From: Halarcobacter sp.
GTDB taxonomy: Bacteria > Campylobacterota > Campylobacteria > Campylobacterales > Arcobacteraceae
Assembly (NCBI GenBank): GCA_030145305.1
Contig: JAQYVX010000003.1
Coordinates: 62,001-126,000 of the forward strand
Length of the DNA: 64,000 nucleotides
Direction: 5' to 3'
Made by a program: the position numbers and the translations under genes
Part shown: positions 1 to 8,279 of the stretch, in pieces
How positions within the stretch are numbered: the stretch's first letter is position 1
Layout: the number at the start of each line of letters is the position of its first letter
The notes under the pieces: model-generated
What the model was told of the DNA's origin: nothing
Seen by the model: the letters and a program-made list of their open reading frames with translations, nothing else
Databases searched by the model: none

Positions 1-24
1 AAAAAGTCAAAAGGTTATAAAAGA

Positions 25-402
25 ATGAAATATGGTGAAAAAGAGATTTTAGAGTTTGATATAAATAAAGAAGAGAACTTCTGGCCAAATACAAATGAAA
101 AAAAATATACTATAAATATTGAACTTCCTGAGTTTATGGCAAAATGCCCAAGAAGCGGTTATCCTGATTTTGCAACAATAAAATTAGAGTATATTCCAAA
201 TAAATTAGTTATTGAATTAAAAGCTTTAAAACTTTATATAAATTCATTTATGAATAGAGAAGTTTCTCATGAAAATACAGCAAATGAGATTTTTGATACT
301 TTATATGAAAAATTAGCTCCTAGATATATGAAAGTTATTGCTGATTTTAAACCACGTGGAAATGTTCATACGGTTATTGAAGTAGATAGCGAAAAAATGT
401 AA
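25..402 (+). CDS. queF: NADPH-dependent 7-cyano-7-deazaguanine reductase
   Basis: QueF reduces preQ0 to preQ1 in queuosine tRNA modification in the cytosol. The 125-residue length fits the short, single-domain (type I) QueF. The segment CPRSGYPDFATI near residues 41-52 holds the active-site cysteine followed by the conserved PDFA, and ELKALKLYINSF followed by REVSHE is the QueF signature that binds NADPH and substrate. ATG start follows an AAAGG-containing leader at the very edge of the window, so its upstream neighbour is unseen. A TTG-started helix-turn-helix gene follows after 9 bp, suggesting cotranscription. Identification is firm. Confidence 0.93.
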   Translation: MKYGEKEILEFDINKEENFWPNTNEKKYTINIELPEFMAKCPRSGYPDFATIKLEYIPNKLVIELKALKLYINSFMNREVSHENTANEIFDTLYEKLAPRYMKVIADFKPRGNVHTVIEVDSEKM

Positions 403-411
403 GGTGAAATC

Positions 412-1065
412 TTGGAGAGATTAGTTACATCAGCACAAGCTGCCCAAATATTAGGACTATCCCTTCAAGGAGTTCATTATAGAATTAAAAATAATCAACT
501 AAAATCTATTAAAAAATCTGGTAAAACATATGTATATATAAGTGAGTATGTAAATAACAATGACAATAATACAGAAGCAAAAGTTGAGTTAAAAGAAGAA
601 ATATATACTCATCATCAAGAAATGCTAAAAGGAAAAGATGAACAAATTGTTTTATTAAAACAATCTATTAAATGGATGAAAAAACAATATGGTTCTGAAA
701 TCTCTAGATTAGAAAAAAATCAAAAAAGAATTATTGGCGTTTTTAATAGAGAAATAGAACTACTACAAAGTGCATTTAATGAAATGCGCTCAATATACAA
801 ACCTCAAATAGTAATGCAAAACCAAGAAAATCAAGAAAATCAAGAGCAAGAAGAAAATAAAAATCATAAAGAAGAAAATAGTAAAAAAGAAGATTTTATA
901 ACACTAAGAGATTTTACAATCTATTTAAAAAGATATAATAAAAATGAAAAAGATATAAAATTAATAGTCTTAAAAGCTATTCAAAATAGGGATAATAGAT
1001 TTATTTATAATAAAAAAGATAAAAAACTTTTAATTTTAAATGAAGATTTTTCAGATTTGATTTAG
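412..1065 (+). CDS. Helix-turn-helix protein with coiled coil, function unknown
   Basis: The 217-residue product starts at TTG, 8-10 nt after AAGGTGA. Residues about 4-45 (VTSAQAAQILGLS, then YRIKNNQLKSIKKSG and YVYISEY) look like an excisionase/MerR-type winged helix-turn-helix. Residues about 60-125 are strongly charged and likely coiled coil, followed by a low-complexity stretch rich in E, N, Q and K (about 137-162) and a small C-terminal domain ending in hydrophobic beta-like segments. It lies 23 bp upstream of the broken response regulator, probably in the same transcript. A DNA-binding role is inferred from the N-terminal fold only; target and partner are unknown. Confidence 0.6.
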   Translation: MERLVTSAQAAQILGLSLQGVHYRIKNNQLKSIKKSGKTYVYISEYVNNNDNNTEAKVELKEEIYTHHQEMLKGKDEQIVLLKQSIKWMKKQYGSEISRLEKNQKRIIGVFNREIELLQSAFNEMRSIYKPQIVMQNQENQENQEQEENKNHKEENSKKEDFITLRDFTIYLKRYNKNEKDIKLIVLKAIQNRDNRFIYNKKDKKLLILNEDFSDLI

Positions 1066-1088
1066 AAGGATTGAATAAGAGGTAAGCT

Positions 1089-1811
1089 ATGAACAATGAA
1101 GACTTGGATCATTTAATATCTATATGTAAAGATTTACATATATTATATGTTGAAGACAATGATGAAGTACGATTACAAACGTCAAAAATGTTAAGTATTT
1201 ATTTTAAGCAAATAACTCAAGCTGTAAATGGGAAAGTGGGCTTAGAAAAGTTTAAAAATAACAAAATTGATGCCGTTTTTACTGATATAAATATGTCCGT
1301 AATGGATGGAATCTCTATGATAAAAGAAATAAAAAAAATAAATTCTCAAATTCCTATCATTATATTTTCTGCTTATGATAATAAAGAATACTTTTTATAA
1401 ACAATAGAATGTGGAATAGATGGGTATATCTTAAAACCTTTTAGATTTGAAGAAATAAAAAAAGTGCTTGCTAAAATAGCTCTAAAGATAATTGATTTAG
1501 AAAAAGTAGATACAAAAATAGAATTAATAGATGGTTTTTATTGGGATAAAGTAGAGAAAATTCTTTATCAAAAAGATAAAGAAATATATCTTACAAAAAA
1601 AGAGTCTAAACTTTTTCAACTTCTAGCTTCAAGTAGACACAAAATTGCAAGTTCTGAAGAAATAGAAATAGAACTTTTTGATGATGATAACTATAATGAT
1701 AATAAAAGAGTTAGAAGTCTTCTTTCTAGGCTTAGATGTAAAGTTGGATGTGATTTAATGCATTCTGTTTATTCTGAAGGATATAAGTTGAATTTGGCAA
1801 AAAAATGTTAA
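1089..1811 (+). pseudogene. OmpR-type response regulator interrupted by in-frame TAA
   Basis: One reading frame encodes a whole response regulator except for a TAA at 1398-1400. Before it lies a receiver domain with acidic pocket VEDND (residues 21-25), phosphoacceptor D66 in FTDINM, and SAYDNKEYFL. After it the same frame resumes with TIECGIDGYILKPF (the conserved K-P of the receiver) and a winged-helix output domain (LTKKESKLFQLLA, then RSLLSRLR and SEGYKL). Alignment by eye with the intact regulator at 22684 puts the stop where that protein has a serine in LLSAIE, so a TCA-to-TAA change is one simple origin. A GTG at 1464 could restart translation but has no ribosome site and would give only the output half. 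The kinase gene overlaps its end by 7 bp. Stop-codon readthrough cannot be excluded. Confidence 0.8.
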
Positions 1812-2938
1812 AAAAAGTAGAGTGGTTTGAACAAATTTTTAATAATAGTGGAGTAGGTATTTTTATAGTAGATAAAGATAGAAATATACTTGAAGCAAAT
1901 GAAGCAATGTGTACAATGTTTGGCTATAAATATGAGGAATTAATTAATAAATCAACAGAATTTTTACATATAGACAAAGCTTCATATGATAATTTTGCAA
2001 AAGTAGCTTTTGACAAAGTATTAAACAATGAATCTCTCAATCTTGAATATATGTTTAAGCATAAAAATGGGAATACTTTTTGGTTAAAAATTGCAGGAGA
2101 TTCTGTTAAATTGAATAAAGAAGTATTATGGACAACTACAGATATTACACAAAGAATAGAAGCAGAAGAAAGAATAAAATATCTCAATGAAGGATTAAAT
2201 AAGGAGATAAAACAGCAAGTAAAAGTTTTAAGAGAAAAAGACAAACAATTACAATATCACGCACGTTTAGCAAAAATGGGAGAAATGCTAAATATGATTA
2301 CTCATCAATGGAGACAACCCTTATCTGCAATAAGTGCGACTACTTGTTTTATGCTTGCTAAATTATCAGCAAACTCATTTGATCAAAAAGAATTCTCAGA
2401 AGAATTAGGACATATAGAAGACTATTCTAAATTTTTATCTAAAACAATAGATGATTTTAGAAATTTTTTTAAACCTAATAAAACAAAGGTTGATACAACT
2501 TTAGAAAATATTGTAAATACAACCTTAGCTATAGTTAACCCAATATTAGTAAATAGTAATATTGTTGTAATTAAAGAGTTTGAATGTAAAGAAATTATAC
2601 ATAATTATGAGAATGAAATAGGACATGTAATTCTAAATCTTATTAAAAATGCAGAAGATGTTTTGATTGAAAGAGCTATAGAAAATGCAACTATTAAAAT
2701 TAGAACATACAAAAAAGACAATAATGCAATTTTAGAAATAAGTGATAATGCAGGTGGAATTCCCCTTGAAATCATAGATAAAATTTTTGATTCTTATTTT
2801 TCTACAAAAACAGAAAAACTTGGAACAGGCTTGGGACTTTGTATGTCAAAAACTATCATAGAAGATAATTGTAAAGGAACAATAGGCGTAAGAAATGAAA
2901 AAGAAGGCTCCGTTTTCATTGTATCTATCCCTTTATAG
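1805..2938 (+). CDS. PAS-domain sensor histidine kinase
   Basis: Soluble sensor kinase of 377 residues. A PAS domain spans about residues 8-118 (FNNSGVGIFIVDKDRNILEAN, ending WTTTDITQR), followed by a coiled coil (about 118-155) and a dimerisation domain with H167 in ITHQWRQPL. The ATPase domain has an N box (LNLIKNAED), the G1 box DNAGGIP and the G2 box GTGLGLCMSK, all intact. There is no membrane segment, so the signal is probably cytoplasmic. It overlaps the broken response regulator by 7 bp and lies directly upstream of the membrane-protein/hydrolase/GTPase operon, whose promoter carries phased repeats. With its own regulator interrupted, its present output is uncertain. Confidence 0.9.
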   Translation: MLKKVEWFEQIFNNSGVGIFIVDKDRNILEANEAMCTMFGYKYEELINKSTEFLHIDKASYDNFAKVAFDKVLNNESLNLEYMFKHKNGNTFWLKIAGDSVKLNKEVLWTTTDITQRIEAEERIKYLNEGLNKEIKQQVKVLREKDKQLQYHARLAKMGEMLNMITHQWRQPLSAISATTCFMLAKLSANSFDQKEFSEELGHIEDYSKFLSKTIDDFRNFFKPNKTKVDTTLENIVNTTLAIVNPILVNSNIVVIKEFECKEIIHNYENEIGHVILNLIKNAEDVLIERAIENATIKIRTYKKDNNAILEISDNAGGIPLEIIDKIFDSYFSTKTEKLGTGLGLCMSKTIIEDNCKGTIGVRNEKEGSVFIVSIPL

Positions 2939-2943
2939 AAATA

Positions 2944-3018
2944 TAGACAATTAATAGACAATTCAAATTTTAAATTTTTAAAAAGTTGGACATTTCATAG
3001 ACACTCTAGGAATATAAT
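2944..3018 (+). promoter_or_regulatory. Promoter with four phased TNGACA half-sites
   Basis: Four 7-mers of the form T-R-G-A-C-A-N occur on this strand: TAGACAA at 2944 and 2955, TGGACAT at 2987 and TAGACAC at 2998. Each pair is spaced 11 bp (one helical turn) and the pairs are 43 bp apart (about four turns). A perfect -10 hexamer TATAAT sits at 3013-3018, 8 bp after the last repeat, so the proximal pair overlies the -35 position. Direct repeats in this position are the usual layout for OmpR-family activators. The adjacent two-component genes make their regulator the obvious candidate, which is inference. A strong ribosome site (AAGGAGG) precedes the next gene. Confidence 0.6.
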
Positions 3019-3052
3019 GGATTTATTAAATTAAATTCTTAAGGAGGATTTT

Positions 3053-4438
3053 ATGGAACAGCCACTTTTTCTCGAACAGAGAAAGTTAATTAAGAGATGG
3101 AATGGACCATGGTCAATTGTTCTAAATACAGCATTTGTTTTAGCATTATTTTATATAAGTTGGTGGATTTTTCAAGACCCTAGAGGTATTATGAGAATGT
3201 ACACACCTTATGTTGGTTATATGTGGTGTAGATGGCTTTTAGTTATTATGATTTGGATGGCATATGTTTTTGATTTTTGGCCATTTAAAAGAAAATGGTT
3301 AAATGATACTCATCCTGTTGTAAAGGGAGTTATTTTAACTACTTTAACAGTTGTCCTTTTTACAGTTGTTTTAAAAGTATTTTTTGAAACAATTTTAGGT
3401 GAATACTCAATTGCCTATTTTAGTCCTGCCAGATTAGAAGAATTAGGTATTGTTGAGTTTTATGCCGAAGAATACTCTGCTCAAGCTATTTTGATGTTTG
3501 CGGCCATTGCCTCTTGGTTAAGCCCTGCTTGGGTGGTTGCTGCTGAAAATGCTCCTTGGCAAAAGTTAACTCAGCCTGTGAAGGGCTTTACTATTTTAAT
3601 GTTTACATTTTTACTAAGTATGATAGTTTATTTTGTTGCATTTCACTCTCACATGGCAATATTATTTGATCCTTGGCAACAGTTTACAGCAATTACTCCC
3701 CCATGGTGGGAAGATTTTGCAAATACAGTTCATGGTAATTTTAACATTGCATGGATTATGTGTTGTACTGTTATTGTATGGATGCATGAAACAATTTGGG
3801 AACGATATCCATTTTCTCAAATTAAAACTAATTGGTTAAGAAGATTTTCTTCATTTTTTGGAATTATCGCAGTTGCCGTAGCTCTTAGCTTTTTTCTTTA
3901 TTATGCACAAGAGTTAGTATGGGGAGAAGCAGTTAGAGGAACAAGAAGATTAATGTCTCCTGATTGGCGATGGTTACATGTTGGAGAAATGGCAATATTC
4001 TGGTTAGTTCCAGCTTTATTTATGCATTTTTATATGAAAAATGCAATTAATAGTTATTCAAAACCAGTGAATGTTCTTTTACGAACAGTTGTTTCTATCA
4101 TTGCTGCAGTAATTTTATATTATGTTTATTATAAAACAGCACACTTATTTTTAGGTACTCAAAAAGGTTTTTCACATCCTCAACAATTTCCAATGATACC
4201 AATGATTTGGCTTATAAATGTAATGCTTATAAACTATTGGTTTATGGATGGTTGGCCTGGTTGGAAACTTGATAAACGAGAGATAATAAAAGAAGAAGAA
4301 AAATATATTGGTGATGAAGTATCTATGACCCCAAAATTTAATTATGGCTTACTTGTTGGTGCTATTGTGGGAGTTATAATTTATTTTGCAATTGTTTATA
4401 TTTTGCCAGCTTTTGGTAATACATTTACAATATTTTAA
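3053..4438 (+). CDS. Trp-rich polytopic inner-membrane protein, unknown function
   Basis: This 461-residue protein has about ten hydrophobic segments (for example about 18-40, 54-75, 88-111, 145-165, 180-200, 228-245, 268-288, 312-330, 342-362 and 430-455) and is unusually rich in tryptophan, often at helix ends (WWIF, WCRW, PPWWEDF, WPGW). I see no cofactor motif or known transporter signature; some databases label such proteins as amino-acid transporters, but nothing here supports that. It starts 7 bp or so after AAGGAGG, follows a promoter with phased repeats, and is 15 bp upstream of a Tat-exported hydrolase. The operon context suggests a membrane partner for a periplasmic metal-dependent reaction. 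Confidence 0.75.
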   Translation: MEQPLFLEQRKLIKRWNGPWSIVLNTAFVLALFYISWWIFQDPRGIMRMYTPYVGYMWCRWLLVIMIWMAYVFDFWPFKRKWLNDTHPVVKGVILTTLTVVLFTVVLKVFFETILGEYSIAYFSPARLEELGIVEFYAEEYSAQAILMFAAIASWLSPAWVVAAENAPWQKLTQPVKGFTILMFTFLLSMIVYFVAFHSHMAILFDPWQQFTAITPPWWEDFANTVHGNFNIAWIMCCTVIVWMHETIWERYPFSQIKTNWLRRFSSFFGIIAVAVALSFFLYYAQELVWGEAVRGTRRLMSPDWRWLHVGEMAIFWLVPALFMHFYMKNAINSYSKPVNVLLRTVVSIIAAVILYYVYYKTAHLFLGTQKGFSHPQQFPMIPMIWLINVMLINYWFMDGWPGWKLDKREIIKEEEKYIGDEVSMTPKFNYGLLVGAIVGVIIYFAIVYILPAFGNTFTIF

Positions 4439-4453
4439 TTAGAGGAGTATGTT

Positions 4454-5617
4454 ATGAATGAAAATGAAAGTAAAGGAAGAAGAGATTTCTTAAAAGGGAC
4501 TGCTACAGGGATAGGTTTAGGTACTTTGGCCTCTATGGGATTATTTTCTTATTCTCCTCTTAGAGAATTCTTTCTTCCTAAGATAGAAAGAAAATTTGCA
4601 GATTTTGGGGCATGTAAAAGTGTAAAAGTAACAAATATATCTGAAACTAGTTGGTTTGATAATGCAACACTTATGGGCGATATAAAGGGTGCTGGTGGTC
4701 TTTTAGTAAATCAGTATGATTTTAATTGGGCTCCATTTGGAGATGGTTCAGGTTTAGCAAAAGGTAGTTATGAAAAAGGTATTGCAAAAATCAAACATCT
4801 TTTGCCAAATAAATTAGAAGAAGCTTGGGCAATAGCAAAAGAAAATAGTATAAATGCAGATAATGCTGGTGGTTTTTCAGCATTAATTGAGGTTGAAAGA
4901 TTAGACGGTACAAAGAAAAAATATTTACTTGATACGGGTTGGTCTTATGAGTGGATGGATAAATCTTACAAAAGAGAAGGTATTGATAAAATGCTTGCAA
5001 GTGGAGAAATTGATACTTTAATTGTTTCCCATGAGCACTTTGATCACTTCTTTGGTTTTCCTGTTGCTATGAAATACAACCCAAATTTAAAAGTAATTAT
5101 CCCTGAGGGATTTTATAAAGAGGGATTACAATATATTAAAGACTCTGGACATACAGGAGAGTTGATAGTTGCAAAGAACGGTTTATATGAAATTGAACCA
5201 GGATTCTCAACATATGTCTTTAATGTTCCTATCATATGTCGAGTCTTTGGAGAGCAGTCTATTTTTGCAAATGTAAAAGATAAAGGATTAGTGAGTGTAA
5301 CAGGATGTTGTCACCAAGGTATTATAAAATTTGCAAATACTGCTTACAAAGAACTTAAATACGATAATGACCAGATGTATGGATTATATGGAGGATTACA
5401 TATTTCACCTTTTGATGATTGGGATCCTAAGTATGATGACCTTGTTATCTCTTTAGGTAAATGGGATTTTAAAAGAGTAGGTTGTAATCATTGTACAGGT
5501 CTTTTGACTGCTGAAAAATTTATACGTGCTGGTTATCCAGTTGTAAAAGGTACAGCTCAACATAGGTCTAAAAGTAAGTCTTATCTTGGCAATGGAGATA
5601 TAATTACATTTGGATAA
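4454..5617 (+). CDS. Tat-exported metallo-beta-lactamase-fold hydrolase
   Basis: The 387-residue product opens with a twin-arginine signal (GRRDFLKGTATGIGLGTLAS, residues 8-27), so it is probably exported folded with its metal. Zinc-ligand motifs are SHEHFDH (192-198), GCCHQG (284-289) and GGLH (313-316). This triplet matches the MBL subfamily that includes archaeal dihydropterin-methyl-ribofuranosylaminobenzene phosphate synthases (SHGHxDH, GCSHxG, GGFH types). The substrate is unknown; the family label should not be read as methanopterin synthesis. It sits between a membrane protein (15 bp upstream) and a G3E-type GTPase (44 bp downstream), which suggests metal loading and membrane assembly are linked. 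Confidence 0.85.
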   Translation: MNENESKGRRDFLKGTATGIGLGTLASMGLFSYSPLREFFLPKIERKFADFGACKSVKVTNISETSWFDNATLMGDIKGAGGLLVNQYDFNWAPFGDGSGLAKGSYEKGIAKIKHLLPNKLEEAWAIAKENSINADNAGGFSALIEVERLDGTKKKYLLDTGWSYEWMDKSYKREGIDKMLASGEIDTLIVSHEHFDHFFGFPVAMKYNPNLKVIIPEGFYKEGLQYIKDSGHTGELIVAKNGLYEIEPGFSTYVFNVPIICRVFGEQSIFANVKDKGLVSVTGCCHQGIIKFANTAYKELKYDNDQMYGLYGGLHISPFDDWDPKYDDLVISLGKWDFKRVGCNHCTGLLTAEKFIRAGYPVVKGTAQHRSKSKSYLGNGDIITFG

Positions 5618-5661
5618 ATTTATAAGTCGAAGTTATTTACTTCGGCTTCTTAGGATAAGTC

Positions 5662-7488
5662 ATGAACATAGATAAATTTTACCCAGCTAAAATAAATGCA
5701 GATAGAGAAACCTTTAATGCTATTATGCGGTCTCTTTTGATAAAAGCCAGTTATGATGGGATATTAAAAAGGATTACAGACTATAAAGGTATGTATTTAT
5801 CTGAAGAGAAACAAGAGTGTTGGACTATTAAATTTGAAAATTTTAAAGGTGTCTTCGGATTAGTTTTGTCAAATGCAGATGAGAAAAAAAATGGATATTT
5901 GGGAAAATTTAATTTGTATTATTTTCCTTCTTGTGATGATGAATATCTTTCAAAGTGTTCTTTAGTTGAAGAGTATATTGCAATTGATGAAATTTTTATA
6001 GAAAAAGTAAGAGCTTTTTCATCTTATCCAGAATTAACTACAAACTTTTATATTTGTACAATTAGTCTTTTTATTGATAAACAAAAAAGCAGTTTATTTG
6101 TGAGTTATGAAGTGCAGAAAAAAGAAAAATCATATACAAAAGATGGGGTAAAAGATATAAAAGATGTTACAAATGAAGAGTATATACTCAAACCTCTTAG
6201 TATAGATAAAAACTTTCCTACATTTAGAGTGATGTCCCAATTTTTTAATTTTTTTAATACACTTTTGACTAGGATAAATGGAGAAAAACCTGATTATTTT
6301 AGAGCCTATAAAAGTAAAGCAGAAGAAATTCTCTATTCGCAAAATGGTTCTTTTACAAAAGAATATAGTACAAATAATTTAAAACTATTTTTTTCATTAG
6401 CTTATGGAGATTTTGATTTTAAAAGTTTGGAAACAAATCTTGAAATAAAAAAAGAATTAAAAAGTACAAATATACTTCTTAGTTATATGAAATATTCAAG
6501 CTGGACAACTGTTGATGTAGATTTTAAAAAATATAGTAAAACATTTACTCAAAACAGTTTAAAGCCTAAGTTGATTTTGGTAACAGGATTTTTAGGTTCT
6601 GGAAAAACTAAATTTTTACAAAACTATATTGAGTATGAAAATAGTAAAAATAGATTTGTAGGTATTATCCAAAATGAAATAGGAAAAATTGGATTAGATG
6701 GAGAGTTATTAGATTATGATTATTCCTTGGTTGAGATTGATGAAGGTTGTATTTGTTGTAGTTTATCAGGACAGTTAAAAGCAGGGATTGCATCACTTAT
6801 GAAAAATTCCCAGCCTGATACTATCTTAGTTGAGACAACAGGTGTTGCTAATCCTTTTAATTTACTTTCAGAATTAAATGAACTTGAGAATATAATAGAA
6901 TTTGATTCAATTGTAAGTGTTATTGATGGAGCAAATGCGCTTGAACTTTGGGATAAATATGCAATTTTTAAAGATCAAGTAAGAGCAGCAGATGTAATTT
7001 TGCTCAATAAAGTAGATTTGCTAAGTGAAGAAGAAATAGAACAAGTAGAAAATTTATTGTTAAAAAACAATAAATGTGCAAATATTATAAAAACCGTAAA
7101 CTGTGATATAAATCCGACTAGCATATTTAACTCCTCAAAGTTGATTAAATCAAGTACTTCTCATATAGGAATGATGTTTACAGAGGATACTCCACAAGAA
7201 AGAACACATATCCAAGATGGAATATCTAGTAAAAAAGTAGATATATTAGAGCCTATAGATAAAAATCTTTTTAAAATATACCTTGAAGCTATTCCAAAAG
7301 ATATTTTTAGAATCAAAGGAATAGTTGAGTTTACAAACAACGATAATCAATTTGTAGTTCAATTTGTAAATGGAAAATATGAGTTTTTAGAAATAGAAAA
7401 AAGAAAAGGAAAGGATAACTTTTTAGTATATATTGGTAAAGATATAGATAAATATAATTTGATATTAATTAGTAGTTTTAAGACTTGA
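5662..7488 (+). CDS. G3E (CobW-like) GTPase fused to a novel N-terminal domain
   Basis: The C-terminal half of this 608-residue protein is a G3E-family metallochaperone GTPase: Walker A GFLGSGKT (about residues 309-316), the metal-binding C-x-C-C motif CICC (about 361-364), an ETTGVANP switch segment and NKVD (about 447-450), then a CobW C-terminal-like region (FRIKGIVEF). The first roughly 300 residues are an extra domain that I do not recognise, with no membrane segment. Normal G3E proteins are 300-420 residues, so this is a fusion. It is the third gene after the Tat-exported hydrolase, so I infer that it supplies a metal to that enzyme or monitors it. Transcript probably ends in the 90 bp gap downstream. 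Confidence 0.85.
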   Translation: MNIDKFYPAKINADRETFNAIMRSLLIKASYDGILKRITDYKGMYLSEEKQECWTIKFENFKGVFGLVLSNADEKKNGYLGKFNLYYFPSCDDEYLSKCSLVEEYIAIDEIFIEKVRAFSSYPELTTNFYICTISLFIDKQKSSLFVSYEVQKKEKSYTKDGVKDIKDVTNEEYILKPLSIDKNFPTFRVMSQFFNFFNTLLTRINGEKPDYFRAYKSKAEEILYSQNGSFTKEYSTNNLKLFFSLAYGDFDFKSLETNLEIKKELKSTNILLSYMKYSSWTTVDVDFKKYSKTFTQNSLKPKLILVTGFLGSGKTKFLQNYIEYENSKNRFVGIIQNEIGKIGLDGELLDYDYSLVEIDEGCICCSLSGQLKAGIASLMKNSQPDTILVETTGVANPFNLLSELNELENIIEFDSIVSVIDGANALELWDKYAIFKDQVRAADVILLNKVDLLSEEEIEQVENLLLKNNKCANIIKTVNCDINPTSIFNSSKLIKSSTSHIGMMFTEDTPQERTHIQDGISSKKVDILEPIDKNLFKIYLEAIPKDIFRIKGIVEFTNNDNQFVVQFVNGKYEFLEIEKRKGKDNFLVYIGKDIDKYNLILISSFKT

Positions 7489-7578: not shown

Positions 7579-7866
7579 ATGAAAATTATTAAAGGATGGG
7601 CTCCTCCTTTAGGATTAGGATGGGGAAAATGGACTCCAATTTATACTCATGTAGGGAATATAGGATTTAAAGTTTCTTTTGTTTCAGAATCTGATACAGA
7701 ATCAATTTTTAATATTCAGATACTAGAGGGTGGAAAATCTATTCCTAAAAGTTATGTTGGTCCCATAAGTAATATAAAAGTTCGTTCTGATGATTGTATT
7801 TGTAAAACAAAAGTTAGATTTAAAAGCCATTTTTCTGGTCAAAATATTAGAATAGAGGTATCATAG
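7579..7866 (+). CDS. Small protein of unknown function
   Basis: A 95-residue protein with a good ribosome site (AAAGGATTTAA then ATG). It is rich in aromatic residues and glycine at the start (GWAPPLGLGWGKWTP), then has alternating beta-like segments, and two cysteines in DDCICK. There is no signal peptide or membrane helix. Its TAG stop overlaps the GTG start of the following lipoprotein gene by one base, so the pair is translationally coupled. I recognise no family. Confidence 0.6.
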   Translation: MKIIKGWAPPLGLGWGKWTPIYTHVGNIGFKVSFVSESDTESIFNIQILEGGKSIPKSYVGPISNIKVRSDDCICKTKVRFKSHFSGQNIRIEVS

Positions 7867-8279
7867 TGTTAAGAACAAGTTTAGTTATAGTTTTATTTGC
7901 AGCTTTTTTTACTGGTTGTTATAATAAACAAGAAAATATTGAATATACAAATCATTTTTTTATAATTGATAAAAGATTAACTTTACAAAAAGAGGATATA
8001 GAAGATATTAAATATATAAAGAATGATGAAGGTTTATATAATGTAGATTTAATTCTAAAGAAAAGAGGATTAAATAAATTAAAATACCTATTTAAAAACT
8101 CTATTGATAAACATTTTGGAATGATTATCAATAATAAAATAATTCAATTTAATATACCTATAGTTGAGAACATTTTTGAAGAAAGTGGAATACTAAATAA
8201 TAAAGAAATACACTTCCAATTTGATGAAATACAGACACTATATTTCTTAAAAAGTTTTGATGTGAAATTTAAAAAATAA
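7866..8279 (+). CDS. Predicted lipoprotein, unknown function
   Basis: The 137-residue product starts with a lipoprotein signal (hydrophobic core LVIVLFAAFF, lipobox FTGC with C18) and so is probably anchored in a membrane facing the periplasm. The rest is charged and lysine-rich with no motif I know. It starts at GTG overlapping the stop of the small upstream gene (TAGTG), which argues that the two act together. Nothing follows it in the same direction for about 490 bp. Confidence 0.65.
   Translation: MLRTSLVIVLFAAFFTGCYNKQENIEYTNHFFIIDKRLTLQKEDIEDIKYIKNDEGLYNVDLILKKRGLNKLKYLFKNSIDKHFGMIINNKIIQFNIPIVENIFEESGILNNKEIHFQFDEIQTLYFLKSFDVKFKK

Follow-up and report, generated by a model that had tools for sequence, protein, structure and literature searches.

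The 64,000-nucleotide stretch of DNA analysed here (the window, taken at its full length; Halarcobacter sp., Arcobacteraceae, Campylobacterota; NCBI GenBank assembly GCA_030145305.1, contig JAQYVX010000003.1, positions 62,001 to 126,000 of the forward strand) carries at 3053-7488 three adjacent genes that form a real, rare and strongly conserved set, encoding a membrane protein (MP), a metallo-beta-lactamase-fold hydrolase of the twin-arginine translocation (Tat) type (MBL), and a fused G3E GTPase (hereafter GTPase). Its parts are of known kinds except for MP, and what appears new is their combination and the derived character of the MBL. We read the set as an inducible, self-contained metalloenzyme cassette, in which a periplasm-facing MP-MBL pair would have a cytosolic GTPase of its own to load its metal, and give this reading an even chance of being right. 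An earlier interpretation made from the DNA letters alone (the sequence-only reading) had proposed a regulated metalloenzyme; the operon with its regulators and the MBL export signal beside a membrane partner support that proposal in part, and the rest, including metal insertion by the GTPase, a complex of MP with MBL and enzyme activity, we infer. As that reading held, no named pathway fits. No description of the cassette was recognised in the open-access literature searched, which is weak evidence, and PADLOC returned no family at an E value of 0.001 for the three proteins, that is, no match to anti-phage defence. The sequence-only reading had missed a break in the regulator gene, two cysteines in the MBL and the kinship of the latter with the hydrolases 7dck, 2p4z and 3h3e.

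Conservation and co-occurrence of the cassette

The open reading frames (ORFs) of the three genes lie where they had been placed, at 3053-4438 (461 amino acids, aa), 4454-5617 (387 aa) and 5662-7488 (608 aa), on the same strand and with gaps of 15 and 44 bases. A search with six exact peptides in one genome for each species, which catches close relatives only, found 15 loci with MP relatives at 61-85% identity, by title 13 from Campylobacterota and two from Bacteroidales; across full-length relatives, MP is 64-85% identical to the window's copy. Together with loci from further genomes, 23 were compared, and wherever the contig continues the order MP-MBL-GTPase is constant. MBL follows MP in 22 of the 23 (the contig ends in L015) and GTPase comes next in 21 (L015 and L022 stop at a contig end). 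A response regulator and a kinase precede MP in 20, the exceptions being the two Bacteroidales loci (L018, L019), which have a GntR-FCD regulator and a PAS protein upstream instead, and L022, an additional MP-MBL copy, truncated, from a genome with a full cassette elsewhere. Several copies are cut or damaged: only residues 79-387 of the MBL are visible in L016, the regulator is represented by its end only in L015, the kinase is split in L011, and the MBL gene of L027 (G263) has one in-frame TGA. Apart from the cassette's own five genes, the 21 loci clustered have no gene cluster common to more than eight of them.

That the three genes would be conserved together, as the sequence-only reading supposed, is thus borne out by a neighbourhood comparison, and equally by their distribution: among 298 Campylobacterota genomes, the same six, and no others, have MP, a cassette-type MBL and the GTPase N-terminal domain. 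MBL scores in these six exceed 770 bits, against 52 bits for the next; 23 of the 298 genomes have an MBL match at all, the other 17 being distant (at most 52 bits). Two matches were dropped as spurious, one to MP in G142 (17.5 bits, seven stops) and one to the N-terminal domain in G079 (18.8 bits, read as lying within a TolC-like protein). MP is present in four of the 104 genomes of the window's own family, its own genome included, and was not found in the plasmids or viral contigs searched; in 393 genomes from the order of one Bacteroidales carrier, that carrier gave the only MP match. The recurrence of the cassette in other genera and, by the titles of L018 and L019, in another phylum is more than chance; these two loci come from separate records, as metagenome-assembled contigs 7.9 and 16.8 kb long, and the claim of a second phylum depends on how they were binned. 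Carriers include bacteria titled Sulfurospirillum (L008, L011), a genus with cultured strains, making the cassette directly accessible to genetics.

The three proteins have also diverged in step, pairwise distances over 18 loci correlating with r=0.976 for MP-MBL, 0.942 for MP-GTPase and 0.939 for MBL-GTPase, and none of 1000 permutations reached as high a value for any of the three pairs; five of the 23 loci (L015, L016, L018, L022, L027) were left out as cut, incomplete or broken. Mean column identity is 78% for MP, 82% for MBL and 57% for GTPase, in sets that overlap but differ; by this measure, conservation is stronger in MP and MBL than in the GTPase. A membrane protein so conserved, lacking a family name and constantly partnered by an MBL, is probably an enzyme with unassigned chemistry, and the gene set suggests a membrane-bound enzyme, not yet studied, in certain low-oxygen bacteria.

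The features of the cassette and of the region directly upstream are as follows.

1089-1811, + strand: OmpR-type response regulator, interrupted (ORFs 1089-1400 and 1464-1811 in one frame; Response_reg, Trans_reg_C)
1805-2938, + strand: PAS-domain histidine kinase (HATPase_c 2.9e-17, PAS domains), preceding MP in 20 of 23 loci
2945-3018, + strand: promoter, with a distal AGACA pair, a proximal GGACA/AGACA pair and a -10 element TATAAT
3053-4438, + strand: MP, a Trp-rich integral membrane protein of about 11 predicted helices, unnamed family
4454-5617, + strand: MBL-fold hydrolase with twin-arginine signal (H193-x-H195-x-D197-H198, H287, H316, H346; C286, C344)
5662-6555, + strand: GTPase N-terminal domain (about residues 1-298), its model weakly SRPBCC/Bet v 1-like
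6556-7488, + strand: G3E/CobW-type GTPase with GCICC motif and CobW_C (PF02492 1.6e-41, PF07683 5.3e-10)

A derived hydrolase with an export signal

The zinc motifs and twin-arginine signal ascribed to the hydrolase are both present, as a Lactamase_B domain (PF00753, 1.2e-6) with its HxHxDH motif and as an N-terminal RRDFLKG. The latter scores 18.0 bits with NCBIfam TIGR01409 (cut-off 16.7), and the Pfam model TAT_signal (PF10518) stays below its cut-off (14.5 vs 22.7); the arginine pair at 9-10 is invariant in all 14 cassette MBLs and is followed by a hydrophobic stretch. An obvious AxA cleavage site was not seen after the signal, which may thus be retained as an uncleaved membrane anchor. 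Equally invariant in the 14 are H193, H195, D197, H198, H287, H316 and H346, and all have the HxHxDH, GCxH, GGxH and HC(T/S)G motifs. These motifs are shared with the closest solved relatives, 7dck, 2p4z and 3h3e (hmmsearch E 2.9e-13 for 7dck and 3.1e-11 for 2p4z), a group that we take to be COG1237.

From these relatives the cassette MBL differs in its twin-arginine signal, its N-terminal extension, its length and two cysteines. At 387 aa it compares with 248-284 aa for the three PDB chains and with 187-250 aa, counted from the first Met, for 14 relatives from Campylobacterota (loci L048-L061, filtered by a pattern requiring HxHxDH and G(C/S)xH). Length and signal together mark it as a derived branch, not as a typical COG1237-type member of compact size. 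Both C286 and C344 occur in 14 of 14 cassette MBLs and in none of the 14 relatives, which have Ala (12), Ser (1) or Gly (1) at the first position and Pro (14) at the second. Each is close to a presumed metal-ligand His, and the pair may be joined as a disulfide or may modify the metal site.

A tryptophan-rich membrane protein without a family

MP has 27 Trp in its 461 residues, 22 of them invariant among 17 aligned proteins. It had been described as a ten-helix protein with no known motif; the lack of a family match stands, and the helix count is revised, since an AlphaFold model of moderate quality (pLDDT 62, pTM 0.66) and hydropathy suggest 11 membrane helices. MP has no match in Pfam or NCBIfam at E 1, nor in the PDB by phmmer or hmmsearch, and a Pfam scan of its 17 members gave five families that each match one member (best E 0.062). 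With 11 helices and the N-terminus inside, invariant residues take up 51 of 98 loop positions outside versus 28 of 97 inside, and the invariant H198, H309, H364 and H375 would all lie on the presumed outer side. On this predicted topology, the conserved loops of MP would face the periplasm, the side to which export of the MBL is expected.

Known membrane protein families were tried and rejected. The WW and PDWRW loops gave the idea of a haem-handling WWD protein, and HHalign tests with 25 Campylobacterota proteins each returned probabilities of 0.6% for CcsA, 0.4% for haem-copper oxidase (COX1) and 0.8% for NrfD, with 0.6% for a reversed-MP control and no positive control. Foldseek and VIA-align rows for the MP model include MATE, receptors and a designed helical barrel (Z 7.8), all weak.

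The fused GTPase

The third protein was expected to be a CobW-like GTPase with a CICC motif and an extra domain of about 300 residues, and this is confirmed. From residue 305 it matches cobW at 1.6e-41 (142.3 bits, cut-off 20.7) and CobW_C at 5.3e-10 (39.5 bits, cut-off 22); G309, L311-T316, C363/C365/C366 and N449-K450-x-D452, belonging to the P-loop, GCxCC and NKxD motifs, are invariant in all 13 aligned GTPases, and the nearest PDB chain is YjiA 1nij (phmmer 3.4e-22). The GFLGSGKT, GCxCC and NKxD motifs and the CobW_C domain place it among the G3E (COG0523/CobW/YjiA) GTPases, from which it differs by its 300-residue N-terminal domain and by being tied to one cassette. The window's own genome has three cobW-family matches, at 145.7, 77.2 and 20.8 bits, the cassette GTPase being the highest and the other two lying in frames of 259 and 265 aa. 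Clear clients are missing for many COG0523 proteins, and the cassette could supply a G3E GTPase with a clear client.

The N-terminal residues, about 300 in number, have no Pfam match better than E 0.026, and across 14 sequences none of the invariant positions is His, Cys, Asp or Glu, which argues against a metal site there. Structure prediction of this domain, which the sequence-only reading had proposed, yielded a good model (pLDDT 80.4, pTM 0.79) but only weak fold matches: Foldseek gave no PDB match at E 0.001 or below, its best row (E 0.035) being an unrelated lipoprotein, and the leading VIA-align rows are of SRPBCC/Bet v 1 type, the best with Z 6.3 and a root-mean-square deviation of 4.1 over 130 aligned residues, below the tool's telling level.

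Regulators and promoter

The two-component pair noted directly upstream is there as far as the kinase and regulator genes go, but the regulator gene is interrupted: a TAA at 1398-1400 lies in the frame 1089-1811 at codon 104, the one stop seen in a comparison with the 239-aa relative in L008. In 18 of the 20 loci having a regulator, its detected part is free of stops; the exceptions are the window and L166, from the same genus, where it is spread over two frames.

The phased promoter repeats that had been remarked on are confirmed, and similar pairs recur at other cassette loci. Between the kinase and MP genes, the window has AGACA at 2945-2949 and 2956-2960, GGACA at 2988-2992, AGACA at 2999-3003 and TATAAT at 3013-3018. 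Of the upstream regions from Campylobacterota, 17 of 19 have an AGACA-type pair with an 11-bp period and a score of at least 9/10 (L020 and L026 score lower; the set is 19 of 20, L015 not being included), as against a mean of 0.05 regions and a maximum of 1 in 1000 rounds of shuffling, a statistic that overstates independence because the half-site was picked from the same related sequences and the shuffle preserves base composition only. Over periods of 7-24, the mean score peaks at 11 (9.63), followed by 8.0 at 9 and 13; the two Bacteroidales upstream regions have no 11-bp pair (scores 7 and 6). Genome-wide, AGACAAT-N4-AGACA has 28 matches in 15 of 17 genomes, versus two for the reversed pattern; 12 of the 28 stand at the cassette promoter (11 genomes), and the other 16 read as four intergenic and 12 coding. 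As a sequence pattern, the conserved phased boxes support local control by the cassette's own regulator.

Elsewhere, in the middle of locus L161 (G351), an AGACAAT-N4-AGACA pair lies upstream of a gene read as solute-binding/sensor, just after a response-regulator gene resembling that of the cassette.

In Sulfurospirillum, an OmpR-type regulator is reported to bind CTATA-repeat promoters in tetrachloroethene respiration; the pceAB promoter has three CTATA copies with six-base gaps, overlapping the -35 box, and the published binding consensus CTATW-N17-CTATW represents the first and last of the three repeats, 22 bp apart (PMC7755780). The pceAB promoter resembles the cassette promoter in its five-base direct repeats and six-base gaps, and differs in its half-site (CTATA, not AGACA), in that the cassette has pairs 11 bp apart, and in the operon concerned.

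Proposed mechanism and alternatives

The sensor kinase and OmpR-type regulator would sense a cue and, through the tandem AGACA boxes, switch on the MP-MBL-GTPase operon. The cytosolic G3E GTPase would then insert metal into the MBL ahead of its Tat export, or else into MP, with the N-terminal domain of the GTPase perhaps serving as a client-binding adaptor; Tat exports folded proteins, which fits metal loading of the MBL in the cytosol. Folded MBL would come to lie at the outer face of the inner membrane, possibly anchored by its uncleaved signal helix, where it and the conserved periplasmic face of MP might act jointly on a small substrate. The promoter supports the regulatory step, and the later ones, from metal loading and anchoring to complex formation and catalysis, draw on family knowledge and conservation. 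Urease with UreG and NiFe hydrogenase with HypB are metalloenzymes with their own GTPase. The cassette is like them in that it encodes a P-loop GTPase from the same superfamily beside a presumed metalloenzyme client, and differs in that MP and MBL have no sequence relation to them (Pfam, NCBIfam) and the client relation is presumed. A bolder version, which we regard as doubtful, is that MP is the first member of a membrane metalloenzyme family not yet described, a Trp-rich protein of 11 helices with four invariant His and several invariant acidic residues on its periplasmic side and a cysteine-modified MBL partner, the substrate of which, perhaps a reduced sulfur compound, would not be handled in this way by known enzyme pairs.

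Several points weigh against the proposed metalloenzyme cassette. The distance correlation shows that the genes travel together and does not imply interaction, joint vertical descent alone being sufficient. The positive-inside bias of MP is modest (mean K+R 13.4 inside vs 9.4 outside), its model is poor, and its fold matches are weak, Foldseek offering a subunit of alternative complex III at E 0.26. The client of the GTPase could be MP or some other protein, and the broken regulator gene may mean that regulation is altered in the window genome itself.

Other explanations must be weighed alongside. That unrelated genes adjoin by accident is highly improbable in view of the conserved order and co-occurrence. 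COG0523 proteins are often linked to zinc limitation, and the presumed outer side of MP, with its four invariant His, would suit a metal-acquisition module, with MP carrying a metal or chelate, the periplasmic MBL cleaving the ligand and the GTPase allocating the metal inside the cell; yet the regulators upstream are a PAS kinase and response regulator or GntR-FCD, not a typical metal repressor, and MP has no credible transporter match by sequence or fold (MATE and LacY with E of at least 0.16; MATE with Z of at most 4.7), and we consider such a module unlikely. No likelier, in our judgement, is envelope or lipid modification, in which MP would handle a lipid-linked substrate, the MBL would be a phosphodiesterase of the periplasm and the GTPase would bind a hydrophobic ligand through its N-terminal domain. 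The model of that domain agrees best with SRPBCC/Bet v 1-type folds (Z 6.3), many of which bind hydrophobic ligands, and no His, Cys, Asp or Glu is invariant across the 14 sequences of the domain; against this, the Z value is below the telling level, Foldseek gave nothing at E 0.001 or better, and a literature search for a phosphodiesterase label of 7dck gave no such paper among those listed.

Slightly fainter still is the prospect that the cassette is an accessory to the respiration of polysulfide or thiosulfate; it would act on reduced sulfur compounds, and the two extra MBL cysteines, C286 and C344, which are specific to the cassette, would take part. Clusters for molybdopterin-binding, Fe-S, NrfD and rhodanese-like proteins (L013, Campylobacteraceae, 3-4026) and for Fe-S, NrfD, sulfur-transport and rhodanese proteins (L019, Bacteroidales, 2-3326) lie just upstream of the cassette, and the third gene downstream in L008 is SQR-like, scoring below the family cut-off. 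These neighbours come from a partial profile scan at seven loci (L008, L013, L018, L019, L025, L026, L027) with no correction for chance; the shared Fe-S protein is in no other of the 21 clustered loci, other neighbours (kdpA, pyrG, recJ, alanine racemase) are unrelated, and sulfur chemistry is for the cassette only a lead.

Adjoining genes

Downstream of the cassette, 7579-7866 (+ strand) encodes a stand-alone protein of 95 aa that matches the NCBIfam model of the colicin Z C-terminal domain (2.1e-23, 82.4 bits, cut-off 50). Directly after it, 7866-8279 (+ strand) encodes a small lipoprotein-like protein with weak, sub-cut-off similarity to SecD.

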